Shown: positions 2,725 through 47,329 of the stretch, piece after piece
How the letters are laid out: every line of letters begins with the position of its first letter
Numbering within the stretch: position 1 is the first letter of the stretch
From: Candidatus Roseilinea mizusawaensis
GTDB taxonomy: Bacteria > Chloroflexota > Anaerolineae > J036 > Brachytrichaceae
Reading direction: 5' to 3'
Assembly (NCBI GenBank): GCA_016841965.1
Contig: JAEANN010000017.1
Coordinates: 1-64,000, forward strand
DNA: 64,000 nt
Made by a program: the position numbers and the translations under genes
The notes under the pieces: model-generated
Told to the model about the DNA's origin: nothing
The model's input: the letters and a program-made list of their open reading frames with translations, nothing else
Database searches by the model: none

Positions 2725-2726
2725 GT

Positions 2727-2757
2727 GGGGGGGGGGGGTTAAACCCCCCCCCCCCCC
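2727..2757. terminator. G12/C14 homopolymer hairpin after the surface protein
   Basis: Twelve G, then TTAAA, then fourteen C, starting three bases after the TGA of the Fn3-like gene. The two runs can pair fully. There is no U tract, so it may act as a terminator, an mRNA 3' stabiliser or merely a replication-prone homopolymer pair. The run lengths are the least reliable bases in this region. Confidence 0.35.
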
Positions 2758-2796
2758 AGCCCCGGCAGCCAACCCGCGCCGGGCGGTGTAGGGGTT

Positions 2797-3876
2797 TTGG
2801 ATGGAGGCGCCGCGCCGGTCGCTGCTGTTGTGGCGGGGCAGGCCGAGATTGCGCCGGGGATGTTGGGGGTGCGGGGTTCACCCGCTACCCAGCGGCAGGG
2901 CGACTACTTTGTGCACACGCCCGATACACCGCTGGTGCTGGGAGCGCTGCCTACGCAGATGTTCACCTACACCCTGCAAGCTGTGGCCGGCGGGTTGGGC
3001 CAGATCACCGCGCGCGGGCTGGCGACTGCGCTGGTCAGCAGCGCGCTGCTGGTCGCGCCGGCCCAGCCGCTGCCCATTCAGGTAATCGACGAGGCGTTGC
3101 TGGAGTCATCCTTGCAGGTCAGCCATGCCCGATTAGCCGCCGGCGAGCGGGTGACCTATACCCTGACGCTGCGCAACGCCGGCCCGCTGGAGCGCCATGT
3201 GCTGGTGACGGACGACCTGGCGCTGGCCGGGCAACTGACGCTGGCCGAGCTGCTGACAGAGACGATCAGCCCTGGGGGGGCGTTTGACGGGCGTTATCTG
3301 CGCTGGGAGGCCGATGTGCCGGCCGGCGGGGCGCTGTTGCTATCGTTCAGTATGCGCACACGGGCGGCAGCGCTGAGCGGCTGCGCTGCGCCGTGCCTGT
3401 TGCGCAACTCGGTCAGCCTGTTCGACGGCGAGACGCACTATAACGTGACGGCGGCGCGCACCGTGTTGCAGCCGGGCGGGTCGCCGGGCGAGCCGCCCAG
3501 TCAGCCGGCGCCTGACCTGGCCGGCGCGCAATATGGGCCGGCCTGGCCGCTGGCGACGGCCGGCCAGGTTGTGACGTTCGAGGTCGGGGCGCTCAACGCC
3601 GGAGCCGGGGCGGCGGCTGTGACGGTGACGGTGCGGTTGCCGCCGGCCGAGTTTGCGGCGCTGGAGGGGGCAGACCCTGCGCCGGCCAGTGTGACAGGCC
3701 GGCAGGTAGTCTGGCGCATGGGCGGCCTGGGCGCCGGGCAGGCTCTGGCGATAACGCTGCGACTGCGCGTGGCTTCCCATGCGCCGGTTGGGGCGCTGCT
3801 GCGCAGTCTGGCGCTGATTGACGATGGGGTGAACGCGCCGTTGATCCGCGTCGCCGAGGCGTGGGTGCAGGAGTAA
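2797..3876 (+). CDS. DUF11-like repeat protein
   Basis: A 359-residue reading frame with at least two DUF11-like beta-sandwich domains: around residues 105-190 (RLAAGERVTYTLTLRNAGP...) and 235-340 (GQVVTFEVGALNAGAGAA...). The sequence is Ala/Gly/Leu-rich and looks extracytoplasmic, but no signal peptide is visible at the proposed TTG start and no good ribosome-binding site precedes it. Either the start is wrong, or the N-terminus was lost, or the homopolymer hairpin just upstream hides a frame error. It probably belongs with the preceding surface protein. It converges on ygeW, whose stop is 8 bases away. Function unknown. Confidence 0.6.
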   Translation: MDGGAAPVAAVVAGQAEIAPGMLGVRGSPATQRQGDYFVHTPDTPLVLGALPTQMFTYTLQAVAGGLGQITARGLATALVSSALLVAPAQPLPIQVIDEALLESSLQVSHARLAAGERVTYTLTLRNAGPLERHVLVTDDLALAGQLTLAELLTETISPGGAFDGRYLRWEADVPAGGALLLSFSMRTRAAALSGCAAPCLLRNSVSLFDGETHYNVTAARTVLQPGGSPGEPPSQPAPDLAGAQYGPAWPLATAGQVVTFEVGALNAGAGAAAVTVTVRLPPAEFAALEGADPAPASVTGRQVVWRMGGLGAGQALAITLRLRVASHAPVGALLRSLALIDDGVNAPLIRVAEAWVQE

Positions 3877-3883
3877 CGCCGGC

Positions 3884-4900
3884 TCAGGCCGGCGCTACTC
3901 CGCCCATGGTCATCGCCATGACCGCCTTCTGCACATGCAGGCGGTTTTCGGCTTCTTCATACACCACCGATTGCGGGCCGTCGATCACGGCGTCGGTCAC
4001 TTCCAGGCCGCGATCGGCCGGCAGGCAGTGCATGTAGATGGCGTCTGGCTTGGCCAGCGCCATGCGCCGTTCGTCGCAGATCCAGCCGGTGTATTGCTTG
4101 CCGATCTCGGCGCTCTCCTTCAGATCGCTGGTCGTCAACATACAGCCCCATGATTTAGGATAGACCACATCGGCGTTCTCAAAGGCCTCGTCCATGTCGT
4201 GGGTGATGCGGAACGAGCCGCCGCTTTGCCGCGCGCCCTGCTCGGCCTGTTGCAGGATTTCCGGCATCAGTGTGTATTCCGGCGGATGCGCCAGCACCAC
4301 ATCCATGCCGAAGCGCGCCAGTTGGATGATGAGCGATTGGGGCACGCTAATGGGCTTCTGGTAACTGGCTGCGTAGGCCCAGCTCACGGCAATCTTGCGG
4401 CCTTTCAGGTGCTTGCCTTTGTATTCGCGGATGGTGAGCAGGTCGGCCAGGATCTGGAAGGGGTGGTACACGTCACACTGCATGTTCAGCACCGGGGCGG
4501 GGCTGTGCTGGGCGACTTCGTTGATGTAACGGTTGCCAAAGCCCCAATCGCACTGGCGGATGGCGATGGCGTTGAAGTAGCGCCCGAAGATCTGGCCGAT
4601 CTCTTTGGCGGTGTCGCCGTGCGAGATCTGGGTGGTGTCGCTGTCGATGAAGGCGGCGTGGCCGCCGAGCTGGGCCATGCCGGCCTCGAACGAGCCGCGC
4701 GTGCGGGTGCTGGTGAAGAAGAAGAGCATCGCCAGCGTCTTGTCGCGCAACAGGGGGTGTGGCTTGCCGGCGCGGTATTCCTGTTTCAGCCGGCTGGCCA
4801 ATTCGAGCACCGCTTCGGTTTCAGAGATCGAAAAGTCCAGGTCGCTGATGAAGTCGCGGCCGGCGAGGGAAATGGGCGAAATGGGGGAAGTGTCGGGCAT
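3884..4900 (-). CDS. ygeW: YgeW-type carbamoyltransferase
   Basis: A 338-residue member of the aspartate/ornithine carbamoyltransferase fold. The carbamoyl-phosphate motif STRTRGSFE is at about 62-70, and a HPFQ-like motif is at about 145-148. The stretch SWAYAASYQKPISVPQ plus RFGMDVVLAHP is the signature I recall for E. coli YgeW rather than ordinary OTC or ATC, and HCLPAD lies near the C-terminus. YgeW acts in anaerobic purine/urate degradation clusters, although its exact substrate is not fixed by sequence. A GGAG Shine-Dalgarno lies 8 bases before the ATG. It follows ygeY by 18 bases on the same strand, so the two are probably cotranscribed. Alternative: a catabolic ornithine-type carbamoyltransferase. 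Confidence 0.88.
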   Translation of the reverse strand: MPDTSPISPISLAGRDFISDLDFSISETEAVLELASRLKQEYRAGKPHPLLRDKTLAMLFFFTSTRTRGSFEAGMAQLGGHAAFIDSDTTQISHGDTAKEIGQIFGRYFNAIAIRQCDWGFGNRYINEVAQHSPAPVLNMQCDVYHPFQILADLLTIREYKGKHLKGRKIAVSWAYAASYQKPISVPQSLIIQLARFGMDVVLAHPPEYTLMPEILQQAEQGARQSGGSFRITHDMDEAFENADVVYPKSWGCMLTTSDLKESAEIGKQYTGWICDERRMALAKPDAIYMHCLPADRGLEVTDAVIDGPQSVVYEEAENRLHVQKAVMAMTMGGVAPA

Positions 4901-4918
4901 GTGTGTTTCTCCAAAAGA

Positions 4919-6154
4919 CTAGGTGTGCGCCGCGCCTGCGCCGGCGGTAAGCATGGCCGGCAGCGCAGCGTAGAAAGCAGTGGCGTTGACGACGTCGTCC
5001 AGTCGCACGTGATCGAGGGTGGTGTGGGCGTAGATTTCGTTGCCCGGCCCAAAGCCGATGGACGGAATGCCGGCCTGGCCGGCCCAGTATGTGCCGTTGG
5101 TGCTGAAGTCCCATTTGCCGGTGCGCGCGCGCTGGCCGTACACCAGTTCGGTGGTGTTCAGGGCGGCCTGCACCAGCGGGTGCAGTTCGTCGAGCGCCCA
5201 GGCCGGGAAATACTTGTCGAGCGTCAAGCGAAAGCCGGTGTAGCTCGGCTCGTCGTAGGTGAGCATCTCCAGCCGCACGTCGCCGTTGCCGGCGCGGTCG
5301 ATGATGGCCTGCACCTCGGCCAGGGCGCTCTCGCGCGTGTCGCCAAAGGTCAGGCGCCGGTCGATGAACAGGGTGGCCTCATCGGGCACGGCGTTGATGC
5401 TGGCCGTGCTGACGCGCAGATCGGTGGCGGTGATGGTGCCCTTGCCCAGGAACTCATGCGTGCGCAGGCCGGCGTCGAGATCGCGCACGCCGGCGATGAC
5501 CGGCAACAGCTTGTAGAGGGCGTTGTCGCCGAGGAAATTGCTGGCGGCGTGCGCGCTGCGACCTTTGGCGACCACTTTCATTTCAATGCGCCCTTTGTGG
5601 CCGCGATAGACTTGCATGTTGGTCGGCTCGCCGATCACCACAACGTCGGGGCGCAGTTTGGGGTCGTAATCGACGAAGCACAAGCCGGCGATGCCGTCCA
5701 TCCATTCTTCCATGTTGCCGGTGTACCAAGCTGTCCAGCCGTCCAGCAAGCCAAGATCGCGCGCCAGCGCCATGCCATAGATCATGCCGGGCGTGCTGCC
5801 TTTCTCGTCGCACGCGCCGCGCGCGTACAAAATGCCGTCTACGACCTTGCCCTCGAAGGGATCCCATTGCCACTGCGAGCGGTCGCCGATGCCGACCGTG
5901 TCGATGTGCGAATCGAAGACGATCACGCGCGGGCCGTTGCCAATCCGGCCCAAGATATTGCCCATCACGTCGAAGCGGGTTTCGTCGAAGCCAAGCCGGC
6001 GCATCTCTTGGGCGATGCGTTCGCCGACCGGCCCGATCTGCGAGTCCATGCTGGGAATGGCGCAAATCTCGCGCATGAAGCGCACGATCGGATCGCGCTG
6101 GGCGTCGATGCGCGCCCGAAGTTGATCGATTACCGAGGCAGTCAGATAGCTCAT
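4919..6154 (-). CDS. ygeY: YgeY-type M20 family metallohydrolase
   Basis: A 411-residue M20 peptidase-family protein. Metal-ligand regions are visible: DSHIDTV (about 100-106), ARGACDEKG (about 131-139) and the glutamate pair in NMEEW (about 166-170), followed by IGEPTNMQVYRGHKGR and WDFSTNGTYWAG. These blocks match YgeY, the hydrolase always found with YgeW, closely. The family removes acyl or carbamoyl-type groups from amino-acid-like intermediates, possibly in purine catabolism; the precise substrate is inference. First gene of a leftward pair with ygeW. A TAAAAT -10 box lies only 9 bases before the ATG and there is no Shine-Dalgarno, so the transcript is probably leaderless. Confidence 0.88.
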   Translation of the reverse strand: MSYLTASVIDQLRARIDAQRDPIVRFMREICAIPSMDSQIGPVGERIAQEMRRLGFDETRFDVMGNILGRIGNGPRVIVFDSHIDTVGIGDRSQWQWDPFEGKVVDGILYARGACDEKGSTPGMIYGMALARDLGLLDGWTAWYTGNMEEWMDGIAGLCFVDYDPKLRPDVVVIGEPTNMQVYRGHKGRIEMKVVAKGRSAHAASNFLGDNALYKLLPVIAGVRDLDAGLRTHEFLGKGTITATDLRVSTASINAVPDEATLFIDRRLTFGDTRESALAEVQAIIDRAGNGDVRLEMLTYDEPSYTGFRLTLDKYFPAWALDELHPLVQAALNTTELVYGQRARTGKWDFSTNGTYWAGQAGIPSIGFGPGNEIYAHTTLDHVRLDDVVNATAFYAALPAMLTAGAGAAHT

Positions 6155-34972: not shown

Positions 34973-36775
34973 TCATGGTTTGGTGTGATTGGCCGGCCAC
35001 AGCGTTGCCAGGTAGATCGCATACAACATCGGCTTCCCGAACCGATCTAACCCGAAGGTTGCCGCATCGCCGGTCAGTTGGGCGGTCTGACTCAGATCGT
35101 GCGTGCTCAGCGCCCAGTTCACCAGCGTCACCGTCAACAACACATAACCCAGGTACAGAAAGATGCGTCCGGCGCGCGGCAACCCCGGCGAACTGACATT
35201 GGCCCATGATCCGGCGGTCAGAGCATCCCAGATCAGGCCGAATGCGATAAACCCGACGCCGGCAAATCCGAAAAGTGGCGTGAAACGATTGTTGATAAAG
35301 GCTGTCTGTCGCAGGAGTCCGCTTACCAGCACAACCATCAGCAGCGCTGCTGCGCGGGCCGGCGTCAATTCTCGGCGGATCAACCATACCAGTGCCACGA
35401 CGCTAAAAATGATCGTCCACCAGAAATCTGTGTAGGTCGGCCCGTACCAGGTCAGTAAGCTCAGTGGCCGGCCGATGTCGGCCATCTCGATCCACAGCGC
35501 CATCAGACCAAATCCGCACAGATAGACCGCCAGCGCCTGCCGCCCGCGTCTGGCCTGCGTGATGCCGGCGAGAACCACCAGCCCGAAGAACACGACCCGC
35601 CACACCGGCGTGTACTGGTTGTTCAGGAAGTCGGCATAGGCGCTGGCAGCCAGTTCCGCCATGGCCGAAACCTGCCCATCTGCGAAGTTGGCGATGAATG
35701 CCATCACCAGATTCAGCATGACAAAGATGTAGAGCTGCACCAGCGTATAGCCGATGATCAGAGGCAGGGCCGCCTTATCGGCAGCATTCAGCACATGCTC
35801 AGAGGACAGCGGTTCTGATTGCGTGGCGCGGGTTGCAAGCCGCCGCACTGTCCACCACGCAAGGCCAATGCAGGCCGGCACGCCGAATGCACCCACAAAA
35901 GCCCACACTTCCTGCCCGGGCGCACGCAAGAATGTCTCGAGCGCGGTCGTCACGACGTTGTGGAGACGCAACCCTAGCGCGATTGCCATCACCCCCAACA
36001 GTGCGATGCGAGGCAGCCGATCCTGGGCGATCCTGACCACCCAACCGGCTGTGACGTAGGTGAAGTTGGCCATCGACAGCCCAATCAACAACAGCAAGGG
36101 CAAGACGAGCGAGGACAGCGTCTGCACGTGGCCGTTGACTTTGGATACCAGCAACGGCGTGCCGCTGATTTGCCAGTCGGCCAATCCCTGCGCCTGGGGA
36201 AACAGAAAGGTGAGCGAAACCAGGCCCAGCAACACAGAAAACTCGACGCCCAATCGGGGGCGCCGTCGTTGTCTGACCAGAAAGAAGACGATCACGCCGG
36301 CCAGTGCCACAAGCCCGCCCCAGGGGCTACCCCAGCCGGCTGTAGCGCCGATCCATGTCATGCTGACCATCACGAACAGGCTCACGACACCCAGCCGGAT
36401 AGCCCAATGGCTGTGCAACGCCCCGGCCAGCGCGAAACTCCAGGCCATTGCCAGCAGGAACAAAGTGGCCGGCAGCAGCGACAATGGCGCCAGCGTGCCG
36501 CGTCCGGCCAGGCTGTTAGTCAATGGAACGAGATCGGCCGACGCGCGCCAGAAATCGTTGAACAGCAACAGCCCGATCATCAGAACCATCAACGCAAAGC
36601 CGAGCAGGATCAACCCGCGTGTGACGCGCGACAGGCCGCGCAGATCGATCAGGCCGGCCTTCAAGTCTGCCCACACGAAGTCGCGCAGCGCGCCGAACGT
36701 TAGCGCCCAGATCAAGCCGAGCAGGGCTGCCGGCGTGAGCGAGGTCGGTTTCAGCCGGCGCAAGGGATTGCTCAT
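34973..36775 (-). CDS. Large polytopic membrane protein of the envelope cluster
   Basis: About 600 residues from the ATG at 36775, which overlaps the upstream stop as ATGA. Roughly fourteen hydrophobic segments fill the chain, with a cytoplasmic-looking linker near residues 320-345 (TRATQSEPLSSEHV). No transporter, glycosyltransferase or protease motif was recognised. It is translationally coupled to the beta-propeller protein, so the two probably form one complex. Terminal gene of the leftward cluster that begins at 44563. Confidence 0.7.
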   Translation of the reverse strand: MSNPLRRLKPTSLTPAALLGLIWALTFGALRDFVWADLKAGLIDLRGLSRVTRGLILLGFALMVLMIGLLLFNDFWRASADLVPLTNSLAGRGTLAPLSLLPATLFLLAMAWSFALAGALHSHWAIRLGVVSLFVMVSMTWIGATAGWGSPWGGLVALAGVIVFFLVRQRRRPRLGVEFSVLLGLVSLTFLFPQAQGLADWQISGTPLLVSKVNGHVQTLSSLVLPLLLLIGLSMANFTYVTAGWVVRIAQDRLPRIALLGVMAIALGLRLHNVVTTALETFLRAPGQEVWAFVGAFGVPACIGLAWWTVRRLATRATQSEPLSSEHVLNAADKAALPLIIGYTLVQLYIFVMLNLVMAFIANFADGQVSAMAELAASAYADFLNNQYTPVWRVVFFGLVVLAGITQARRGRQALAVYLCGFGLMALWIEMADIGRPLSLLTWYGPTYTDFWWTIIFSVVALVWLIRRELTPARAAALLMVVLVSGLLRQTAFINNRFTPLFGFAGVGFIAFGLIWDALTAGSWANVSSPGLPRAGRIFLYLGYVLLTVTLVNWALSTHDLSQTAQLTGDAATFGLDRFGKPMLYAIYLATLWPANHTKP

Positions 36776-38679
36776 GGCCCCAGCCTCCACAGGATCGCTT
36801 TGGCGTTCACCGCCCAGATGGCGCCACCGCCGACTGTTGGCCCATAGATGAAGTCATAGCGATTGCCTGTCTCGGCAATCCCCACCCGTTCGGAAGTTGC
36901 CCAGTGACGCACCTGCCGGCCGGCCTGGTCGAATAGCCGGAATGTGCCGCCTTCGTCGATTGCCAGGATCGATTGCCCCACCACAAGCGGCGCGCCCGAG
37001 TAGCGGTGCGCCGGGTCTTGCCACAGCCGGCGTCCGTCGTCGGCGGCCAAGCTCGTGAGCCGGCCTGCCTCATCAACCACCACCACAAAGCCGTCGCCTT
37101 TGGCTGGCGCGTAGCGCACGCCTGCCCCAATGCGAGTGACCCATCGCTCCGCGCCGCTGGCAGCTTCTAGCGCAACCAGCGCGCCGGCGTTGCTGGCTGC
37201 ATAGGCCACATCGCCCGCGACCACAATCGGCGCTTCAATTGCTCCGTCGGCCGCGTAGTCCCAGTTCAGCGCGCCGGTCGCTATGTCATAGGCGTACACA
37301 GCCCCATCGTCTGAACCGATCAACGCCAGATCGCCGGCAATCGCCGGCGATGACACAACCGCTGCTCCGGTTTCGGCCTGCCACAGCAGCGCGCCGGTGT
37401 CTGCGTTCAGGGCATATACGTGGCGATCCTCGCTGCCGAAGAGGACGATATCGCCGGCTACTGCCGGGCGCGTGGCCACGTTGTCGCCGACGGCAAACGA
37501 CCAGAGATATAAACCGCGCACATCGAGCGCGTACAACCGCTTGTCGGTTGCGCCAAAGTAAATGCGCCCGCGCGCTGGGTCGAAGGCCGGCGGGCTGAAG
37601 ATGCTGCCGCCGGTGTGAAATCGCCACACCAGATGGCCTGTCTCGGTCACGGCGCTGAAAGCCAGCAGGTCGCCGTTGTAGGCTGCTGCCAGCACGATGG
37701 GCGGATCGATCGGCAGCCATACCGGCGGGATGGTGCTTTCGATCTCTACGCCGGTTAGATTTGCTCTGGCGAATACTGCCAGTCGCCACAGATCGGGCGC
37801 TGTTGCGGGCGCTGTTGCGGGCGCTTGTTGCGCGCCGTTGACCAGAAGCGCCGCCGGCGGAAACTGAGCCGTTGAGGGATTAGGTAAATAGCGCCGGATC
37901 AGCGCGCCAGAGGCATCATGCTCCTCTGTCTCAATCACGCCGGCGCCGGCGCACAACCACTCGGCAGACCTTGTTTCGATGGGGGGCGAACTTAGTAATG
38001 TCAATGTTGATTCAATGCGCAGGCAGTCATCGAATTCGCCCGCCTCTGTCTTGCGCGGCCCGGCTGCCACAACACGGCTCTCACTGCGGTAGCCTGTCGC
38101 GCCGACAATGACACCGTCGCTCTGCCATGATTTGTCCGGCCCCAGGTCAGGGGGATATGCCAAAATTGGCGGATCAAAGACCACATCTGTGGCCGTCTCT
38201 ATGGTGTGAATGCCGATCAGAAACAGCCCGCGCGCTTCGCGCACATATACCGTCAGGGTCGTCGTGATCGTGCCATTCATGTCCATGAAGCGGTGGCGTA
38301 CCTCACTCAACTGAATGCTGCGCAGCCAGCTCGTCGCATCGCCTGTCTTCGAGCCGTCGAGGGGGGCGTAGCGCGCCAGAACTGCTGCGCCTAGGGCAGG
38401 CTTCAGGTCGTAGGTCAGGCCGCGCAGGCTGGGCAGCAGGACGACGTTCTGGCTGTTCCAACCGACCAACACGCCGGCCGGGTCGTAGACGCCGGTCAGG
38501 CGCGAGTCGGCATCCATGGCAGGGACGTAGCGGTCAAGGGCGGGGCCGGCCATATCCGGCTGAGGCATCCAGGGCTGCGCGAAAGCAACACCCACTGCGG
38601 CCACACACACGAATATGGCCAACAGGCCGACCATGTCACGCAGGATATCCAGCCGCTTCGCTTGGTCGGGCGTCCTCAT
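36772..38679 (-). CDS. Membrane-anchored PQQ-type beta-propeller protein
   Basis: About 635 residues from the ATG at 38679 (MRTPDQAKRLD), preceded by GGAG; two in-frame ATGs upstream are alternatives. One transmembrane helix (about 17-37) is followed by an extracytoplasmic domain (about 50-330) and a C-terminal propeller with repeated blade motifs such as GRIYFGATDKRLYALDV, DIVLFGSEDRHVYALNADTGALLWQAETG and DLALIGSDDGAVYAYDIATGALNWDY. Such BamB-like propellers are usually protein-interaction platforms; nothing shows that PQQ is bound. Coupled to the polytopic protein that follows. Confidence 0.8.
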   Translation of the reverse strand: MRTPDQAKRLDILRDMVGLLAIFVCVAAVGVAFAQPWMPQPDMAGPALDRYVPAMDADSRLTGVYDPAGVLVGWNSQNVVLLPSLRGLTYDLKPALGAAVLARYAPLDGSKTGDATSWLRSIQLSEVRHRFMDMNGTITTTLTVYVREARGLFLIGIHTIETATDVVFDPPILAYPPDLGPDKSWQSDGVIVGATGYRSESRVVAAGPRKTEAGEFDDCLRIESTLTLLSSPPIETRSAEWLCAGAGVIETEEHDASGALIRRYLPNPSTAQFPPAALLVNGAQQAPATAPATAPDLWRLAVFARANLTGVEIESTIPPVWLPIDPPIVLAAAYNGDLLAFSAVTETGHLVWRFHTGGSIFSPPAFDPARGRIYFGATDKRLYALDVRGLYLWSFAVGDNVATRPAVAGDIVLFGSEDRHVYALNADTGALLWQAETGAAVVSSPAIAGDLALIGSDDGAVYAYDIATGALNWDYAADGAIEAPIVVAGDVAYAASNAGALVALEAASGAERWVTRIGAGVRYAPAKGDGFVVVVDEAGRLTSLAADDGRRLWQDPAHRYSGAPLVVGQSILAIDEGGTFRLFDQAGRQVRHWATSERVGIAETGNRYDFIYGPTVGGGAIWAVNAKAILWRLGP

Positions 38680-38728
38680 CGCGCCTGACTCCATTGCGCA
38701 ATCGCGCACATGTGCAATCGCTCACACG

Positions 38729-38762
38729 TCACAGGGGCGACCAAGACCGGTCGCCCCTGTGA
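38729..38762. terminator. Hairpin between the SnoaL-like and beta-propeller genes
   Basis: A 14-base perfect stem (38729-38742 and 38749-38762, TCACAGGGGCGACC and its complement) with a 6-base loop. Probably terminates the upstream leftward transcript. No long U tract. Confidence 0.7.
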
Positions 38763-38783
38763 TGGACACAACGCTGTCGCCGC

Positions 38784-39218
38784 CTACTCCGGCCCGAATG
38801 GCGCGGCCCAGGCCGGCGATTTATGCACGTGCACGACTGTCCACGCCCCATCACGCCGGATTAACACGCGGCTTTCGTTGTGCGTGCGATGCATGATGCC
38901 CTGGGGCGTCTTGCGCGTCACCATCAGGGTGTAACTGGCGATGGCGACGGCCAGGCTATCGCCGGCCAGGTCGCCGTACACTTGCAGACGCGGTTCAAGC
39001 AGATCAAAGCGCGTTTCATGACCTGCGGGCAGAACGGATTGGCTCACCAGAAACAGATGGAAATCCAGCCCATCCTGCCGGTGCGGTGTGATATACCACT
39101 CGTATAGCGAGAGGTCCGCGCTGGTGGTTGCGGCATAGGCGTCTGGATCGCCGGTAAAGATCGCTGTCAGATGCCGGCGCAAGGTGTCCCAGATTGGCTG
39201 CTGATCCGCGTCGCTCAT
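38784..39218 (-). CDS. SnoaL/CaMKII-association-domain-like protein
   Basis: About 144 residues from the ATG at 39218, with AGGAG eight bases upstream. A single NTF2-like fold domain: WDTLRRHLTAIFTGDPDAYAATTSADLSLYEW at the start and RTHNESRVLIRRDGAWTVVHVHKSP at the end, the latter typical of the CaMKII-association branch. Cytosolic, probably an oligomeric small-molecule-binding or scaffold domain; no catalytic role can be assigned. It lies 40 bases after the HtrA-like protease gene. Confidence 0.78.
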   Translation of the reverse strand: MSDADQQPIWDTLRRHLTAIFTGDPDAYAATTSADLSLYEWYITPHRQDGLDFHLFLVSQSVLPAGHETRFDLLEPRLQVYGDLAGDSLAVAIASYTLMVTRKTPQGIMHRTHNESRVLIRRDGAWTVVHVHKSPAWAAPFGPE

Positions 39219-39258
39219 CGGTGTTGCTCCTCTCATGCTCGCGAGACGGGCAACCGCT

Positions 39259-40530
39259 CTACTGCTTTTGCAGCTTGAGCTTTGCCTCCACGACTTCGGG
39301 CGTGTCGTCTGTCACTTCAAGATTGTCCTGTGTCACTTCCTTGTAGCCTCTGGCGCCCCAGCCCACGCTATAGGTCTTGCCGCGCTCCAGCAGTTCGGTC
39401 ATCTCGAAGCGGCCCTGTCGGTCGGTTTTGACGGCTTCGAGCACTTCGTCCTCGCTGCCGGTGAAGTCGTCCCAGGTGATTCCAGATTGCAAGACCACGA
39501 ACACTGCGCCGGAAATCGGTTTGCCGGTGTTTGCATCGACGATCGTGCCCACGATCTGCACGCCATCGCTCACCGGCCCATCCGGCTCGTCGGGGCCGGC
39601 TGGCGTTTCACCCATCGCTTCGGCGATCATCTCGCGGGCCAGATTGACGGGCCGCAGGGCGTTGATGAACCCGCCGATGGGGATGCAGGTGTCGGTCTCG
39701 TCGATTTGACCGTCGCCGTTGGTGTCCTGGATGCGCCGGCAGTCTGCGACGTTTGGCGCACTGGCCACGGCAGCCTGAGTGGGCACGCCCACAAGCTGGC
39801 CGGCCTCGTTCAACGCCGTGCCGCCGCTGTTGCCGCCGGAGATGGTCGCATCGGTCTTGATCCACGCGCGCCCCTCGATGCCTTCTTCGCTATCGAAGCC
39901 GCTGACGTTCCCGCGCGTGAACGTGATTGTGTTCCCGCCAATAGTGGGATAGCCATAGATGCGCAGCACATCTTCGATCTCGACGGTGTCAGAGTCGCCC
40001 GGTTCGATGAAAGGCAGGTCGAGCGAGTCTGGATCCACTGCTTCGCCGGACAAATCGCTGCTGATGCGCACCAACGCCAGGTCAATGTCTGGCAAAGCGT
40101 CCACCACATCAGCGATGAACATGGCCACCGGTGGCTGATCGGGTTGCCGGGTGAACAGCACCACCAGCTTGTCTTCCAGAACGGTGACATTCTTTTGGCG
40201 CTTCATGCGCTCGATCAGATCGCTGACATCGACGACATGGTAATTGGTGAGGATCAGGCCGTCAGAAGTGAGCACGGTTCCGCTGCCCCAGCCGAAGAAG
40301 CGCAATTCTTGCTTGCCTTTCTTGTTTTTCACCAGCGCCACCGGCCCCAGTTGCACCACAGCGCGCCACTGTGCTTTGGCAGATGGGCGTTGCTGGTTGC
40401 TACCCTGGCTCGCCGGCGCGGCCTGGGCCGTCCAGGCGCGCAATGGCGAGGCTGCGCCGCTGGTCAGCATTGCCACCAGCACCGCCAGCGCCACGCACGA
40501 CATCTTGAAGAACGGATGAATCCTTCTCAT
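39259..40530 (-). CDS. HtrA/trypsin-like serine protease with regulatory-like C-terminal domain
   Basis: A 423-residue exported protease. A signal peptide or anchor lies at 1-38. The catalytic triad is visible as His in TNYHVVD (about 97), Asp in DIDLALV (about 148) and Ser in TISGGNSGG (about 236). Between protease and tail is a Ca-binding-like loop DTNGDGQIDETD (about 270-281). Residues about 325-423 (VGTIVDANTGKPISGAVFVVLQSG...) form a carboxypeptidase-regulatory-like beta domain that closely resembles the tail of the protein at 42159-42998. No PDZ domain was seen. It overlaps the upstream gene by 4 bases. Confidence 0.87.
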   Translation of the reverse strand: MRRIHPFFKMSCVALAVLVAMLTSGAASPLRAWTAQAAPASQGSNQQRPSAKAQWRAVVQLGPVALVKNKKGKQELRFFGWGSGTVLTSDGLILTNYHVVDVSDLIERMKRQKNVTVLEDKLVVLFTRQPDQPPVAMFIADVVDALPDIDLALVRISSDLSGEAVDPDSLDLPFIEPGDSDTVEIEDVLRIYGYPTIGGNTITFTRGNVSGFDSEEGIEGRAWIKTDATISGGNSGGTALNEAGQLVGVPTQAAVASAPNVADCRRIQDTNGDGQIDETDTCIPIGGFINALRPVNLAREMIAEAMGETPAGPDEPDGPVSDGVQIVGTIVDANTGKPISGAVFVVLQSGITWDDFTGSEDEVLEAVKTDRQGRFEMTELLERGKTYSVGWGARGYKEVTQDNLEVTDDTPEVVEAKLKLQKQ

Positions 40531-41210
40531 GGCACCCTCGCTGATTCAACGAATGCCCGGAACCTCTGTTCGGTCAGGTCTCGATTCTCGCGCGCGGTGA
40601 GCAGACTGAACACGTACACCCGCTCGCCTTTGCGGGCCAGCAGGTCTTCGCCCAGCACAACAGCCGGGATGCCCTGCTGGAACAGGCTGGTCGGATCGTA
40701 CACAAACACGAAACTCGCCGTAGCGCCGGGCAGACCCTTGATGGTCTGCCCGTTCTGGGTGTCGAGCAGTTTGAACGAGGACAGGTCGCGCCCACGATTG
40801 AGCGCCAGCGTATTCAGGGCGGTGGCAAGCGCGTCTTCGTCCCCGGCGTCGGCTGCGACCGGCAGCCAGCGCAGCTCGAAGGTGGTGGGGTATTCGGTTG
40901 CCAGGCTGTCGCTGACGCGAATCAGGCCGATCTCGGCGCTTGTCGCGTCCAGCCGCCACGCTTCGGGATACGCGATCGTCACGCCGGCGGGGTCGGCATA
41001 TGATTTGACGCGCGCCTCGACAGCGTTGCGCCACAGCAGGCCGGCCAGAATGGCCACCAGTGTGACGATCACCGTCAGCAGGGCCGACATCTGATCGCGT
41101 GTGTTGATGCGGAACACGGGCGCATTGCGGGTTGTGGTGTGGGCGGACGAAGTCCGGGCGGACGGAGTCCGGGCGGACGGAGTCGGAGCGGACGGAGTCC
41201 GAGTTGTCAT
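40527..41210 (-). CDS. Single-pass anchored protein with the PrsW-associated domain
   Basis: A 227-residue protein. A Pro/Ser/Thr/Arg-rich head (residues 5-30) encoded by 15-base repeats is followed by one transmembrane helix (about 43-60), then an extracytoplasmic domain of about 160 residues (GVTIAYPEAWRLDATSAEI...FRAFVESARVP). That domain aligns by eye with the C-terminal half of the fused PrsW-like protein at 43103-44563 (shared YP, RV.D, LA..R, P.VV.G.D, F..FV.S). It looks like a PsbP/Mog1-type beta-sandwich, which is inference. Sits between a PrsW-like gene and the HtrA-like gene, with ATGA coupling to the latter. Confidence 0.65.
   Translation of the reverse strand: MTTRTPSAPTPSARTPSARTSSAHTTTRNAPVFRINTRDQMSALLTVIVTLVAILAGLLWRNAVEARVKSYADPAGVTIAYPEAWRLDATSAEIGLIRVSDSLATEYPTTFELRWLPVAADAGDEDALATALNTLALNRGRDLSSFKLLDTQNGQTIKGLPGATASFVFVYDPTSLFQQGIPAVVLGEDLLARKGERVYVFSLLTARENRDLTEQRFRAFVESARVP
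41143..41202 (-). repeat. 15-base tandem repeat x4 in the N-terminus of the anchored protein
   Basis: Four units of GCGGACGGAGTCCGG type with few changes. Each unit contains a CGGAC...GTCCG inverted repeat and encodes five residues (PSART type), so length changes stay in frame. Confidence 0.9.
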
Positions 41211-41220
41211 GGCGCGCCTC

Positions 41221-42108
41221 CTACTGTTGATCCGCGTCGGCGCCGGTCAGGGTGAGCTGATTGGCCCGCCGCATGAGGGCAAAGGTCACACCCAGCAGCG
41301 CGACGGCGACGACTGTCGCCAGCGCCAGCGCCGGCCAGGGGTTGTAGCCGCCGCTCGCGCCTGTTGCGCTGATCGTCAGGGGCGACGTGGTGATCTCGCC
41401 GGCCAGCCATGTGAACAGGCCGTTGATGACCGCCGCCAGTGTCAGGCCGGCCGGCATCCACCAGACGGGTTCGTCGTCGAACTTGGTGCGCGCGATGAAG
41501 TAGCCGGTGAATCCGCCCAGGGTTGCCTGCACCAGTGTCACAATCACGATGCGGATGATGCCGGCGCCGAGTTGTTCCGCGGCAATGCCGCCGCTGTTGG
41601 CCACCATGGCGATATTGATGAAGGTGGCATAGCCCAGGCCGGCGGCTGTGCCGTAGATCACCCCGTCGATGCGCTCATCGAATTCGTTCGAGTAATAGAT
41701 GCTGTAGCGCACGGCGGCGTACTTCAGAAACTCTTGGGTAAAGCCGACGATCAGGATCGCGCCGAGAATTTCGGTCAGGGGGTCATGACCGATCCACTGC
41801 GGCGCGCGGGCAATGTCGTTGATAAACGGCTGTCCCACGGCTGCCGCCAGCAATGCGCCCAGCACGCCTACTGCCAGCATGTATTGGCGCGGCTCCGGCT
41901 CGACGCGATCCTGGGCATAGAAGAAGGCCATCCAGAGGGCGGCCGGCACGATCGCCAGCACAATCCCAACCGGCAGCAGCATCTCCCGCCCAATGGTTGG
42001 ATTGAGCACGGCAACAATCAGTTCTGCCACTGCGACGTAGACGAGCAGGCCGACGATCTCGATCAAGCCGGCTCGCCAGACGCTTTGGCGGTTGCGCGCA
42101 ACATTCAC
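41221..42108 (-). CDS. PrsW-like membrane protein (probably inactive)
   Basis: A 295-residue protein with about eight transmembrane helices. PrsW-family landmarks: FFYAQDRVEPEP (about 63-74), QEFLKYAAVRYSIYYSNEFDERIDGVIYGTAAGLGYA (about 125-161). The family usually has EE-x2-K, then a Glu in the EN-x2-Y-type block and a late His as catalytic or metal positions. Here these read QE, IN and Gln/Asn, so protease activity is doubtful. Paralogue of the N-terminal half of 43103-44563. Located 11 bases upstream of the anchored-domain gene, as if that fused protein were split in two. Confidence 0.75.
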   Translation of the reverse strand: MNVARNRQSVWRAGLIEIVGLLVYVAVAELIVAVLNPTIGREMLLPVGIVLAIVPAALWMAFFYAQDRVEPEPRQYMLAVGVLGALLAAAVGQPFINDIARAPQWIGHDPLTEILGAILIVGFTQEFLKYAAVRYSIYYSNEFDERIDGVIYGTAAGLGYATFINIAMVANSGGIAAEQLGAGIIRIVIVTLVQATLGGFTGYFIARTKFDDEPVWWMPAGLTLAAVINGLFTWLAGEITTSPLTISATGASGGYNPWPALALATVVAVALLGVTFALMRRANQLTLTGADADQQ

Positions 42109-42124
42109 GACGACGCCTCCTCTC

Positions 42125-42168
42125 TACTTCTTCGACTTCTTCTACTTCTTCTACTTGTCTACTTCTTC
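42125..42168 (-). repeat. TACTTCTTC nonamer array at the 3' end of a CDS
   Basis: Five units (TACTTCTTC, GACTTCTTC, TACTTCTTC, an 8-base TACTTGTC, TACTTCTTC). The stop codon and last Lys codons of the gene at 42159 fall in it; on the coding strand the unit GAAGAAGTA offers repeated in-frame TAG stops. Confidence 0.85.
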
Positions 42169-42998
42169 ACCAGCTTGATGTCCAGCACCAGCGGGTCTTC
42201 GATGTCCTCTTCGAGCGCCCAGTCTTCCCGGATGATTGGCTTGTAACCCTGCGCCCCGATCAGCCAGGAATGGGGGACGCCGATCTCGATGGGATTGTCC
42301 AGCACAAACTGGCCTTTGCTGTCGGTTTTGGCCGAAGCGAAGATTTCCTCGTCTGTGCCGTTGTCGAGCCAGTCTTCTGCTGACACACCTTCATTCAGCA
42401 CCACGACTACCGCGCCCTTGATCGGTTTCTTGCTCTTCGAATCGACAATCGTGCCCTGCACCGTCACGGCATCGGGCGTTGGCCCATCGCCGCCGATCAC
42501 CACCGCGCCGGATGTCAGCAACTCTTCGCCGATATAGAACTCGACACCGTATTCGGCATCGGGCAAAGGTGACTCGTCCTTCATGTACAGATAGGCCTGC
42601 CACACATCCGGCTGGTTGCTTGCCTTAGGCTTGTCTTCTGAGGTGAGCACGGCTTCGCCGTCCATGTACCACACCGTGACCAGCGTGGTTTTGCGCGGGA
42701 CGCAGTTGTACTCGAACTGGGCGGTGATGCGCGTCGCGCCGGTGGGATAGCTCTCGACTTCCTCTTCCACCTCGCCTTCCTCGTTCAGCGTGACCCACAC
42801 GACGTCGCCGGCCTGCATGGCTGTGCAGCGCGAGGTCTGCGCCGCCGGCGCTTCAACCGCGCTGTGTTGCGCCGCAGCCGGCGCCGAATCCCCGGCGAAC
42901 CTTATGGCGCGCTCGGCATAAGCTGTGCCGGCGGCCGAAACTAGCAAGCCCAGGGTGATGCCTAGTGCAACGATCCACAGTTGTTTGATCTGTCTCAT
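42159..42998 (-). CDS. Exported protein with carboxypeptidase-regulatory-like domain
   Basis: A 279-residue protein with a signal peptide or anchor (residues 1-28, ...SAAGTAYAE). A central beta-rich region (about 55-175) is followed by a C-terminal domain VQGTIVDSKSKKPIKGAVVVVLNEG...AKTDSKGQFVLDNPIEIG...GYKPIIRED, strongly similar to the tail of the HtrA-like protease at 39259. It may therefore share its binding partner. No catalytic residues were recognised. Located between two PrsW-like genes in the leftward cluster. Confidence 0.72.
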   Translation of the reverse strand: MRQIKQLWIVALGITLGLLVSAAGTAYAERAIRFAGDSAPAAAQHSAVEAPAAQTSRCTAMQAGDVVWVTLNEEGEVEEEVESYPTGATRITAQFEYNCVPRKTTLVTVWYMDGEAVLTSEDKPKASNQPDVWQAYLYMKDESPLPDAEYGVEFYIGEELLTSGAVVIGGDGPTPDAVTVQGTIVDSKSKKPIKGAVVVVLNEGVSAEDWLDNGTDEEIFASAKTDSKGQFVLDNPIEIGVPHSWLIGAQGYKPIIREDWALEEDIEDPLVLDIKLVKK

Positions 42999-43102
42999 CT
43001 CAAAATCCTCCTCGTCGATCAGGCGAACCCGCTACCCGTGTCCGACGAACACTGTGCAGGCCGTCTGTCGGAGATGCTGGACATTTGCCCATCAAGTTGC
43101 TG

Positions 43103-44563
43103 TCAAAATGACAGGCTGCTGACGAAACGCTCGAACTGGGGTTGAACGGCGCCGATGGTGTCGGGCGTAGCGACTAATGTGACAACGACAACGGCGTTGT
43201 CTGTGACGAAGAGGTAATCGACGCCCTGAAAGACTTGGGGCACAGCGCCAGTCAATCCGCCCTGGTCTACCCAGGCGAACTCCTGAAGGGTGGCCGTCCG
43301 GCTGTTCACCATGGTCTGGCCGGTGCGCACTACCTTGTACATGAGGTTGTTGGCGGCGCGCTCGGCGGCCAGCATCGATGTGATGGCTTTGATGTCCTTG
43401 CCCGCCGGCATCGCCATCGTTCTGACAATGAACTCGGCGCCGGTGCCGGTGCGGTCAGCCACGCGCACCACTTCACGCGTTCCTGTGGCAATGCTGAAAT
43501 GAGTCGGGTAGGCCCCGCGAATGCCGTCCTTCTCGAAAGCCGTCGCGCCGTTGACGGCGCTGTTCCAGCCGATGATGCCAACGATCAGCATCACGACAAA
43601 CACCCCCACCGTCGCCAGATTCGCCTGGCGATCGCCCACCGTGGCGTCTTCGGCGGCGCCGGCCGTCTGGCCGCTGGCCGAGGCTGCGACATCACGGTTG
43701 ATCAGCCAGGCGACCAGGGCTGTGACCACGATAGCCAGTGCGCCGGCCAGCAACAGGCCGGTCAGGGTCGGCAGGCCGGCGGCTTGCGCATCAGTGGAGA
43801 TCGATCCGCTTTCCAACTGGCCGCGCAGCATCAGGAACAAGCCGTTCAAGGCCGCAGTAATCACGAATCCGAGCGGCAGCCACCAGATGGGGTCGCGCTG
43901 CATCTTGGCGTGGCCGAGGAAATAGCCCAGCAATCCGCCAAATGCTGCGTAGGCAAGCGCTACTTCGACCACGTACACTTCCGCGCCGCCCAGCGCCGCG
44001 CCGCCGCTGCCGAGGATGAATTGCAGATTGGTCGCTGTGGCATAGCCCAGGCCGGCTGCCATGCCATAGATCACGCCGTCGGTGCGCTCGTCGAACTCCG
44101 GCGAGTCGAATATGAAGTAGCGCACAGTGGCGTAGATGATGAACGTCTCGATTGCGCCGCGCACGAAGACGGCGCCGATCAGGGTGTTGGCCAAATCACG
44201 GAACAGCCAGTCCTGGGTGCGGAAAACCTGATCGCTCAGCGGCACGCCGATCGCGCCGGCCAGCGCAAGCCCGATCACAAACATCTGGGCCACATGTCCG
44301 ACCGGCTCCGGCTCCACCCGATCTTGCAAATAGAAGAAGATCAGCCACAGCACCGCCGGCACAAGCGCCAGCACGACCCCCACGGCCAGCAGACCAATCC
44401 CCGACAATTGCGGTTGCAGCGCAACATCGATGGCTGCCACCGCAGCAACAAAAATCAACAAGACAATCAACGTAATGACAGCCGATCGCCAAACACCAGA
44501 ACGAGGTTGGGCTGCTTTCGCGTAACGGTTCGGCCCGGAACTGGCAGAAGACTGCTGAGACAT
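43103..44563 (-). CDS. PrsW-like membrane protein fused to the anchored extracytoplasmic domain
   Basis: About 486 residues from the ATG at 44563, set by AGGAGG upstream; a longer frame is unsupported. Residues about 25-290 carry PrsW-type landmarks (FFYLQDRVEPEP; IETFIIYATVRYFIFDSPEFDERTDGVIYGMAAGLGYATATN). A further transmembrane helix (about 325-345) leads to a 140-residue extracytoplasmic domain (GAYPTHFSIATGTREVVRV...FERFVSSLSF) like the protein at 40527. Canonical PrsW residues are again missing (IE for EE, Ile for Lys, TN for EN). It begins the leftward cluster. Confidence 0.75.
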   Translation of the reverse strand: MSQQSSASSGPNRYAKAAQPRSGVWRSAVITLIVLLIFVAAVAAIDVALQPQLSGIGLLAVGVVLALVPAVLWLIFFYLQDRVEPEPVGHVAQMFVIGLALAGAIGVPLSDQVFRTQDWLFRDLANTLIGAVFVRGAIETFIIYATVRYFIFDSPEFDERTDGVIYGMAAGLGYATATNLQFILGSGGAALGGAEVYVVEVALAYAAFGGLLGYFLGHAKMQRDPIWWLPLGFVITAALNGLFLMLRGQLESGSISTDAQAAGLPTLTGLLLAGALAIVVTALVAWLINRDVAASASGQTAGAAEDATVGDRQANLATVGVFVVMLIVGIIGWNSAVNGATAFEKDGIRGAYPTHFSIATGTREVVRVADRTGTGAEFIVRTMAMPAGKDIKAITSMLAAERAANNLMYKVVRTGQTMVNSRTATLQEFAWVDQGGLTGAVPQVFQGVDYLFVTDNAVVVVTLVATPDTIGAVQPQFERFVSSLSF

Positions 44564-44901
44564 TCCTTGTTCCTCCTGAAAGACTGGTTCACAGCCGGGA
44601 TAATTGGGGCAACCTGCAACTAGATCCAAAAGAGCAGTTCAGCGCCTGTTGGGGCATTTGGGTTCGGGTTTGCTGAACTGCGTTGCCATTACACCTCTTT
44701 TGACTGCGTCACTCACTGTCCGCAAGGCTATTATTACACGAGATGTAGCTTTCTGGCCGGTCAATTTCGTTGCCCGAGCGTATCAAAGGCAACGACGGCA
44801 TTCCGGCGATTCTGACGGTTTCGACAGGCCCGGCCACAGGAAATCGCCCGCGCCCACCGGCGCCCCCTTGCCGGCTCGTGTGATACACTCCTCGCCCAGC
44901 C
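44564..44901. other. 338-base divergent spacer with an inverted repeat
   Basis: No gene. It contains a perfect 10-base inverted repeat GCAGTTCAGC/GCTGAACTGC (44634-44643 and 44672-44681, 28-base loop), about 70 bases upstream of the fused PrsW-like gene: a possible operator or leader hairpin. No clean promoter was seen. Confidence 0.5.
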
Positions 44902-46171: not shown

Positions 46172-46837
46172 TTACGCCAGGGCGCGCTGAATTTCGGCGA
46201 TCAGATCTTCTTCTGGCGCCGCGCCAACCAGTGTGCCGGCCCCGTCGTTGATGGTGGTGTGTGGCACGCCGCTGACGCCGTAGCGGTCGGCCAGTTCTGG
46301 AAACTCCATCGCTTCCACCATGTCGGCCTTGACCATCGGGCTTTCCAGCGCCATCTGATGGGCCAGCATGACTGCGCGCGGGCAGTAGGGGCAGGTGGGT
46401 GTGACAAACACTTGCAAATGCACCGGCTCTTTCAACCCGCGCAGCCACGCCCGGGTGGTCTCGCTCAATCCAGAGTCGCGGCTCGACACCAGCAACACAT
46501 CGCGCACGAGCGTTGTGAACTCGTAGCCGGCCGGGATCCCCTTCAGGCGGATGCCATAGTCAACTGTCTGGTCGCCCTCTTTGCCGGCGATGATGAGCGT
46601 TGGGGCTGCGTCCACTCCGAACTCGGCAGCCTTGGCCGCGTCCGCGTCCAGGTCGAACGTGCTTAGGCTGAGCTTATCTGACAACCCTGCCACACCCTCG
46701 ACCAGCTCACGCGTGTCGTTGCAATATTCGCAGTTTCCGTGGTTGCGCGTGAACAGCAGCAGCGCGACTGGCTGCTCTAACTGGGTAAACGCATCCCGCA
46801 CCTGCTGTTTCACATTTTCGTTCAACAATTGAGACAT
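46172..46837 (-). CDS. Two-domain protein disulfide oxidoreductase (PDO-like)
   Basis: About 221 residues from the ATG at 46837, with GAGG six bases upstream. Two thioredoxin-fold halves: the N-terminal half has CEYC (NHGNCEYCND, about 35-38) and the C-terminal half CPYC (TPTCPYCPRAV, about 148-151), each followed by the cis-Pro region (APTLII; VPHTTIN). This is the archaeal/Chloroflexota-type glutaredoxin-like PDO layout. It is reduced by thioredoxin reductase in known cases, and trxB lies at 15576. Between osmC and the anti-sigma gene. Confidence 0.88.
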   Translation of the reverse strand: MSQLLNENVKQQVRDAFTQLEQPVALLLFTRNHGNCEYCNDTRELVEGVAGLSDKLSLSTFDLDADAAKAAEFGVDAAPTLIIAGKEGDQTVDYGIRLKGIPAGYEFTTLVRDVLLVSSRDSGLSETTRAWLRGLKEPVHLQVFVTPTCPYCPRAVMLAHQMALESPMVKADMVEAMEFPELADRYGVSGVPHTTINDGAGTLVGAAPEEDLIAEIQRALA

Positions 46838-46963
46838 CTTAAACCTCGCGTTGCGCACGCTTGACCGCTGGTGTTCGTTGCGAACACCCTGATTCATGAT
46901 CGGGCATCACTGCGTTAGATGTGCAGGGCGGGTAAAGGTTACAGCAGCCGGGGGCGCAGAATC

Positions 46964-47329
46964 CTACGACAAGCTGGTGGACGGGCCGGCGGCGTCCTTG
47001 GATTCGGCCTGCTGGACAAATTGCTCCAGGTGCAGGCGGAAAAGCAGGCGCTGCCGGACATCCGAGGGCAACACTGCTGCTGTGGCAGTGGTGGCCTGAT
47101 ACAACTCCACCGTTTTGTGCAGCGTGTCTACCACGATCCGGCAACGCTCGCAGCCGGCCATGTGCCGCTCGATCTCTGCGCAGATTTCATCGGCCAGGTC
47201 GCCATCCACATAGTCGGACAATGATCCGAGCAACTGACGGCACTGCGCGTGATCGTGCGCGTGATCGTGCGCGTGATCGTGCGCGTGATTGCTCAGACTG
47301 CCGGCTTCGGGTTGATAGCTCATGCTCAT
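46964..47329 (-). CDS. Zinc-finger anti-sigma factor with His-rich N-terminus
   Basis: A 121-residue protein. HMAGCERC (about 56-63), with the earlier CRQLL, matches the zinc-binding anti-sigma (ZAS) HxxxCxxC pattern. The N-terminus contains four HAHD-type units encoded by a 12-base repeat, which is not part of the family and could bind metal. The gene starts 4 bases after the ECF sigma stop, the normal sigma/anti-sigma pairing. No transmembrane helix, so a soluble redox- or metal-responsive anti-sigma is likely. Confidence 0.82.
   Translation of the reverse strand: MSMSYQPEAGSLSNHAHDHAHDHAHDHAQCRQLLGSLSDYVDGDLADEICAEIERHMAGCERCRIVVDTLHKTVELYQATTATAAVLPSDVRQRLLFRLHLEQFVQQAESKDAAGPSTSLS
47245..47292 (-). 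repeat. 12-base tandem repeat encoding HDHA units
   Basis: Three perfect copies of GCGCGTGATCGT and a fourth changed one. Codes for the His/Asp/Ala-rich head of the anti-sigma factor without a frame shift. Confidence 0.92.

Follow-up and report, generated by a model that had tools for sequence, protein, structure and literature searches.

Membrane proteins of the PrsW/CAAX-protease superfamily occur in several described systems. PrsW has been described as carrying the active-site motifs EExxK and HxxxD and a histidine in transmembrane helix 5 (TM5) (PMC4602095), and fusions of PrsW to other domains, including toxins, have also been described (PMC3482391). APH-1 is a relative within this superfamily, and its QExxR takes the place of the EExxxR of CAAX proteases (PMC6588880). 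In Staphylococcus aureus, the CAAX-protease homolog SpdC scaffolds SagB, a hydrolase that works on the outside of the membrane (PMC10581084). Here we analyze a 64,000-nucleotide stretch of Candidatus Roseilinea mizusawaensis DNA (contig JAEANN010000017.1, positions 1 to 64,000), referred to as the window. A first-pass annotation made from the sequence alone had predicted eight leftward genes at 34973-44563, and all eight open reading frames (ORFs), here named A to H, lie at the positions it gave. Their core appears to be a three-part envelope unit: a probably inactive PrsW-like membrane protein (pseudo-PrsW), a single-pass extracytoplasmic domain (ECD) of PsbP/DcrB fold, either fused to the pseudo-PrsW or encoded directly after it, and an exported protease of either HtrA or thermolysin type that ends in a common domain, TAIL. 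With a probability of roughly 0.55, we propose that the dead PrsW and the ECD form a scaffold in the membrane by which the tailed protease is held or controlled; both docking and control are inferred.

The window contains these parts twice, all on the minus strand. Protein A (43103..44563) consists of a pseudo-PrsW domain (residues ~15-300), a ninth helix and the extracytoplasmic domain (~336-486); its ORF has a possible start further upstream, at 44629. C (41221..42108) is an unfused pseudo-PrsW, and D (40527..41210), a member of ECD family A1, spans the membrane once and shares the extracytoplasmic domain of A. Two exported proteins carry TAIL at their C-terminus. E (39259..40530; TAIL at 39262..39576, row 1 of TAIL alignment A2) is an HtrA/trypsin-type serine protease (Trypsin_2, PF13365, 82.7 bits). 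B (42159..42998; TAIL at 42162..42476, row 2) has a domain named BMID and TAIL without a protease domain. The Pfam family CarboxypepD_reg (PF13620) matches the tailed protein E at 34.7 bits, over its cut-off of 32.3, and B at 30.7, just below. Spacing is operon-like, with a gap of 10 base pairs (bp) between C and D and overlaps of 4 bp for D/E and 19 bp for G/H. In Smith-Waterman comparisons scored against 500 shuffles, the PrsW parts of A and C gave z = 72, the tails of B and E z = 31, and the anchored domains z = 12.5 with the transmembrane helix and 7.5 for the soluble parts alone. Profiles built from relatives and the window's own rows recover the two window copies of the anchored domain (E 9e-64, 2e-63) and of the tail (E 1e-36, 6e-36), and no further ECD or TAIL copy was found by profile search elsewhere in this genome. 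Homology thus holds within each pair, whether of tails, anchored domains or PrsW-fold proteins, and the proposal of one module present once fused and once split, with an HtrA-type protease sharing the regulatory-like tail of B, is borne out.

This unit recurs in related genomes. A search with A gave matches in 32 of 40 genomes, its own included, many of the weaker ones being canonical PrsW, and annotation by BLAST and hidden Markov models (HMMs) showed the three parts recurring in stretches of these genomes and of others taken from across the phylum. A single scan of GTDB species genomes with a PrsW alignment matched 428 stretches, among them 410 relatives, of which we retained the best 80. 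Ranked by similarity to the query, these 80 loci are biased towards close relatives, and they overlap the other genomes read (L107 and L108 are the same contigs as L034 and L035). Their source labels are Chloroflexota groups or unspecific, except for one metagenome-assembled genome labeled Coprothermobacterota; window C has its two nearest relatives among them in an uncultured Anaerolineae bacterium (89%) and in Thermoflexales SKYG113 (87%). A PrsW-like protein, an ECD and an exported TAIL protease occur together in 70 of the 80 loci, 60 with an HtrA-type and 10 with an M4 protease. Eight of the ten incomplete loci are cut at contig ends (L119, L122, L135, L137, L151, L157, L164 and L173). The other two are L165, of the A+B type without protease, and L179, which lacks a tailed protease locally; L179 and genome G099 have identical PrsW in the tree described below, and G099 has an M4-TAIL gene on another contig. 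Median spacing is 4 bp between PrsW and ECD (50 bp or less, overlaps included, in 67/71) and 9.5 bp between ECD and HtrA (50 bp or less in 56/64), and eight ORFs are PrsW-ECD fusions. Because matches fall in families of other classes of the same phylum, the unit is present in at least two Chloroflexota classes, and the module is widespread in this phylum. The synteny comparison suggested by the first-pass annotation therefore found a conserved neighborhood. The protease is its usual partner and was not, as had been thought, added in the second copy. A strongly diverged cassette was also seen in L197, where a PrsW (4933-5967, 5e-20) lies beside an HtrA-TAIL gene (3541-4914) with a second HtrA-type gene nearby (1549-2757).

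The PrsW-like proteins of the module are probably pseudoproteases, as judged from their aligned residues. A and C exceed the cut-off of the Pfam PrsW family (PF13367; 47.5 and 64.6 bits against 23.5), and the NCBIfam PrsW equivalog NF033739 scores the window's PrsW-like proteins at 85.6 and 78.1 bits, under its 225-bit cut-off. Ten ordinary Chloroflexota PrsW (nine from relatives and the window genome's own) and 84 module members, of which A and C are two and the 80 loci supply the other 82, were scored for five residues: the EE pair, the FxxxE Glu, the HxxxN His and the TM5 His. The strand of the ordinary proteins was chosen by a GF..EN-like motif, which agrees with the strand in the match lists in 10/10. 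All five residues are present in every canonical protein and in none of the 84 module members, which keep at most three (none in 13, one in 56, two in 12, three in 3). The FxxxE Glu and the HxxxN His are each missing from all 84, and the first Glu is most often replaced by Gln (54/84). Direct reading and alignment of A and C show degenerate active-site residues; C has QEFLK instead of EExxK. The QExxK of C and of many other members resembles the QExxR of APH-1. Assigning A and C to the PrsW family and fold therefore stands, whereas they are probably not working PrsW proteases. The third PrsW-profile match of the window's genome, on another contig, carries canonical motifs. As a separate observation, 38 of 82 module PrsW ORFs have a CxxC...CxxH zinc-ribbon-like N-terminal motif (for example L048:8534-9463 and L055:1369-2280), which by reading is missing from A and C.

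An AlphaFold model of A built from a 78-row alignment (predicted local distance difference test, pLDDT, 90.1; predicted template-modeling score, pTM, 0.89) has eight long predicted helices, a ninth helix and an alpha/beta domain. Structure comparison covered the chains ranked highest by Foldseek. The best solved match of the membrane part is APH-1 (5a63_C, Z 13.5, root-mean-square deviation (rmsd) 6.1, 209 aligned), at the limit, near Z 13, where helical matches can reflect common arrangements. Two more APH-1 entries match at Z 12.1 and 11.9, SpdC (6u0o_A) at Z 7.1 (rmsd 4.6, 169 aligned), which is weak taken by itself, and ABC transporter domains at 8.3 and 6.8. The 50 fold matches listed for A are mostly occupied by the ECD; no canonical CAAX protease structure is among them, which is no evidence against one, and nicastrin is not among the rows listed either.

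Sequence searches did not place the ECD: D gave a single match in the PDB (E 0.34) and no Pfam match at E up to 1, and it was the fold search alone that placed the domain. In the predicted model, the ECD of A shares the PsbP/DcrB/Mog1/Eag-like fold (2xb3, Z 16.7, rmsd 2.7, 142 aligned), with further matches to EagT6 (6xrf, Z 14.5), SciW (6xrr, 14.4) and DcrB (6e8a, 12.1). The EagT6 and SciW matches would suit an assembly or export factor, in which the ECD acts as a chaperone for the TAIL protein, folding it or handing it on as it is exported, while PrsW gives the ECD a base in the membrane and no stable complex forms. The fold, however, serves many roles, PsbP, Mog1, LpqN and Tsi3 also being matched, and we regard such a factor as unlikely. 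Tsi3 was matched in its complex with Tse3 (4n80_B, Z 11.6), so that the ECD might instead be a latency device that blocks the protease until a signal arrives, as immunity proteins of the same fold do. This similarity is one of fold alone, at a Z below that of PsbP, and the element common to both protease folds is TAIL rather than the protease domain; inhibition by the ECD thus seems quite improbable.

TAIL is found on two unrelated proteases. Its alignment describes one family (36 rows, two invariant glycines), and across the 80 loci 71 of 75 TAIL ORFs contain a protease in the same frame. The four tailed HtrA-type relatives that we scanned (L044, L049, L100 and L101) match Trypsin_2, and three tailed proteins of ~860-880 residues are of the thermolysin type (FTP, Peptidase_M4 and Peptidase_M4_C in Pfam). 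The His-Asp-Ser triad is intact in 63/63 aligned HtrA-type rows, E included, an alignment that excluded stretches of ~150 residues or less; by plain string match, GxSGG is present in 58/65 HtrA ORFs and HExxH in 10/10 M4 proteases. The partner proteases thus look catalytically intact and apparently active. Pfam gave no PDZ match at E up to 1 in E, L044, L049, L100 and L101, and by eye the N-terminus of E resembles a cleavable signal. On the scaffold reading, docking through TAIL may supply the membrane tether for E. A model of B (pLDDT 82, pTM 0.50) shows TAIL as a transthyretin-like domain, similar to a carboxypeptidase D domain (5aq0, TMt 0.78). It also gives long matches to pilins, and from these we take BMID to be Ig-like.

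TAIL lies at the extreme C-terminus, with three or fewer residues following it in 69/75 ORFs, and is conserved on unrelated proteins. It could therefore be a sorting tag that is cut or anchored by a PrsW-type sortase, comparable to MYXO-CTERM, which is recognized by myxosortase (PMC11980579). We consider this highly improbable. MYXO-CTERM is a short tag with a C-terminal transmembrane helix found on many proteins, unlike TAIL, which is a folded domain of ~100 residues with a hydrophobic C-terminal stretch in 1/75 ORFs; moreover, the catalytic residues of PrsW are lost. TAIL copies are also few, 20 in 13 of 15 genomes, with one to four per positive genome. These counts and the C-terminus check lead us to reject a genome-wide sorting tag, and so small a clientele also speaks against the export factor.

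We built a PrsW tree of 108 rows, 11 of them without label, by a quick method; its root was not inferred and its rows include near-copies between overlapping genome sets. A and C fall in different starred clades, and a recent tandem duplication of the window copies is not supported. The A+B type forms an 11-row clade (9 labeled, 100*) within a 39-row clade (100*) in which most cassettes have a protease. All protease-less A+B rows form one clade (100*), and the 23 M4-linked rows form one side of a branch (99*); all partner labels together need two changes on the tree, versus a shuffled mean of 29.3. A+B is most likely the copy that lost its protease, a direction that depends on the root. More tentatively, and at somewhat less than even odds, the scaffold might be a fixed, APH-1-like pair of dead PrsW and ectodomain that accepts an exchangeable serine or zinc protease via the common docking tail, the protease fold having changed once on the tree. 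All four domains are present in 55 of the 80 loci (49 after removal of near-copies). In this set the divergence of TAIL correlates with that of PrsW (partial r 0.40, 0/1000 permutations), weakly with that of the ECD (0.10) and not with that of the protease domain in its own chain (-0.15).

ECD and TAIL also travel together across genomes. In a phylum sample of 400 genomes, that of the window among them, strong ECD matches (E up to 1e-26) and strong TAIL matches (E up to 1e-15) fall in one and the same set of 23 genomes; both cut-offs were chosen after a gap in each match list had been seen. An intermediate TAIL match in G414 led to a diverged cassette with PrsW next door. In a class sample of 396 genomes, which overlaps the phylum sample and for which E 1e-8 was fixed beforehand, 121 genomes have both domains, 249 neither, 10 only the ECD and 16 only TAIL. 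The strict dependence of TAIL on PrsW suggested by the identical 23-genome sets is ruled out by these 16 and 10 genomes. We read nine of the ten ECD-only genomes and 15 of the 16 TAIL-only ones, all but G496. Contig ends account for some: in the ECD-only genome G567 an adjacent HtrA is cut, in G707 the contig stops within the ECD, and G034, G444 and G564 are contig-edge cases among those with TAIL only. G018 (ECD only) has a 4-kb contig, L041, with a fused PrsW-ECD and then a 729-residue frame (1854-4040) that runs off the contig end; in this incomplete frame no TAIL, BMID or protease match was seen. The frame reads as an exported, lipoprotein-like protein in place of the B-type gene.

Several observations weigh against the proposed scaffold. 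In the membrane domain, polar positions are still conserved (Asn in 83/84, Asn or Asp in 84/84, the second Glu in 58/84, Lys in 55/84) and three members retain three of the five catalytic residues, which makes a re-modeled activity conceivable. Such an activity would permit regulated intramembrane proteolysis, in which D receives its site-1 cut from the exported protease and a further cut, within the membrane, from the re-modeled site of the PrsW-like protein, and a signal is released. The PrsW fold, the HtrA beside a single-pass protein and the polar residues left in the membrane, often QE..K, would fit this scheme, and a DegS-like arrangement provides a parallel. Against it, each of the 84 members lacks at least two of the five catalytic residues, the eight fusion ORFs join the presumed substrate to PrsW, and nothing like an anti-sigma or effector domain is seen in D, which has no Pfam match and whose N-terminus on the cytosolic side appears, by reading, short and of low complexity. 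We therefore hold intramembrane signaling to be unlikely. On the structural side, an ABC transporter domain (8.3) outranks SpdC, and helical matches at Z ~13 may be common arrangements. In the co-divergence analysis, the protease domain tracks PrsW (0.39) and the ECD (0.32) too, and the preset contrast, TAIL-ECD greater than protease-ECD, failed (difference -0.21, interval -0.37 to -0.05). Co-divergence was accordingly dropped as proof of a TAIL-ECD contact, and its support for a TAIL-PrsW connection is suggestive at best.

The remaining points of this kind come from genomes with one partner only. The seven ECD-only genomes of one genus (g277) have no TAIL match at E 1e-8 genome-wide; PrsW lies beside the ECD in six of them, the contig of G477 ending there, and one has a weak TAIL match (2e-5) on a 987-residue ORF nearby. 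G236 has an intermediate TAIL match with no cassette nearby. In none of the stretches from the 15 TAIL-only genomes read was PrsW or ECD present, and 12 of these are not explained by contig edges. TAIL can therefore do without the pair, and the pair sometimes without TAIL. The 12 encode HtrA-BMID-TAIL proteins, 11 of which are under the threshold of an N-terminal hydropathy rule; the twelfth, L214, passes, and its hydrophobic segment seems to belong to the protease domain. By this rule, a crude one used without a signal-peptide predictor, the N-terminus is hydrophobic in 60/61 cassette HtrA-TAIL proteins versus 2/13 from TAIL-only genomes. The contrast suggests that the pair accompanies the exported form of TAIL, and that TAIL can occur in the absence of the pair where the protease seems to remain in the cytosol. 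The leaderless set is possibly a cytosolic sister system. That exported TAIL proteins accompany the pair and leaderless ones occur without it would also be expected of the export factor considered above; for a scaffold, the association with the exported form fits a role at the membrane. Two side observations concern these sets. In L220-L224 and L226 (g277), PrsW and ECD form a pair, and the PrsW C-termini of L220-L224 share an 'LKxSWEALIAEQE'-like stretch. In L204-L209 and L211-L216 (for example L213:7964-9514), HtrA-BMID-TAIL mostly lacks an N-terminal hydrophobic segment and has no PrsW/ECD in the stretch, and L204 and L213 have an upstream ORF with ILGG motifs.

Returning to the scaffold, we envisage that the protease is secreted and that, on the outer side of the membrane, the pseudo-PrsW/ECD pair receives its TAIL. 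Docking would tether, orient or switch the protease, comparable to the way in which SpdC scaffolds SagB and APH-1 helps build gamma-secretase. In the window, C, D and E would be the unit with protease and A and B the one without, B keeping BMID and TAIL; B might serve as a competitor or adaptor, which is a guess.

The other three genes of the cluster are probably accessory. F (38784..39236, minus strand) encodes a CaMKII_AD/SnoaL-like protein (PF08332, 102.8 bits). Among the first stretches examined, BLAST found it in just two, L034 and L035, which come from genomes of the window's genus and have it at the same position. G (36772..38709, minus) has an N-terminal domain and, as predicted in the first pass, a beta-propeller, of the PQQ type (PF13360/PF13570). 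H (34973..36790, minus) is a multi-spanning membrane protein with no Pfam match at E up to 1; a profile search against the PDB gave ND4L as sole match (E 0.007 over 57 residues), which we do not take as meaningful. A search of 40 genomes found H in six, the window's own among them, and G adjoins H beside the module in L034, L035, L039 and L109. Of the single complex imagined for the whole cluster, the PrsW/ECD/tailed-protease part is thus conserved, whereas F, G and H are probably accessory. Outside the cluster, a glutaredoxin-like ORF with CxxC motifs (46172-46897) and a short His-rich ORF with CxxC (46964-47329), resembling a zinc protein of the anti-sigma type, were noted by reading.

Searches of the open-licence PMC literature found no published description of this module. 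What is probably new here is the pseudoprotease status of its PrsW, the two protease types on one TAIL, and the folds of the ECD and the membrane domain. Members of this subfamily are probably mislabeled when annotated as 'PrsW protease', and the analysis offers candidate partners for TAIL and for an ECD family without Pfam match. With Bacillus subtilis PrsW, the site-1 protease of RsiW, the module shares fold and Pfam family; it differs in having lost the active-site residues. Neither a C-terminal PsbP-fold fusion nor pairing with a tailed protease appears among the PrsW fusions in the excerpts of PMC3482391 on which we draw. The protease domains resemble HtrA/DegP and M4 thermolysin with intact catalytic residues, and differ from them in their shared C-terminal transthyretin-like TAIL and, in the five HtrA-type members scanned, in having no PDZ domain. 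APH-1 helps build gamma-secretase, where nicastrin is its single-pass ectodomain partner. The likeness lies in QExxR, akin to the QExxK of the module, and, at a Z where helical matches call for caution, in the best solved match of the membrane domain of A. The relation is one of distant fold only, the protease of the module being soluble and exported rather than presenilin, and its ECD PsbP-like. SpdC belongs to the CPBP family rather than to PrsW and is not known to have an ECD subunit or a common TAIL. It is nevertheless among the fold matches, and SpdC-SagB likewise pairs a membrane protein of the PrsW/CAAX superfamily with a hydrolase outside the membrane. SagB is a glucosaminidase, whereas the partner in the module is a protease, and Pfam lists no peptidoglycan hydrolase domain in window A-H. 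If the proposed reading is true, a bacterial PrsW-family pseudoprotease was recruited as a scaffold for soluble proteases, in parallel to APH-1 and SpdC, which suggests that a disused enzyme has been reused as the holder of another enzyme.

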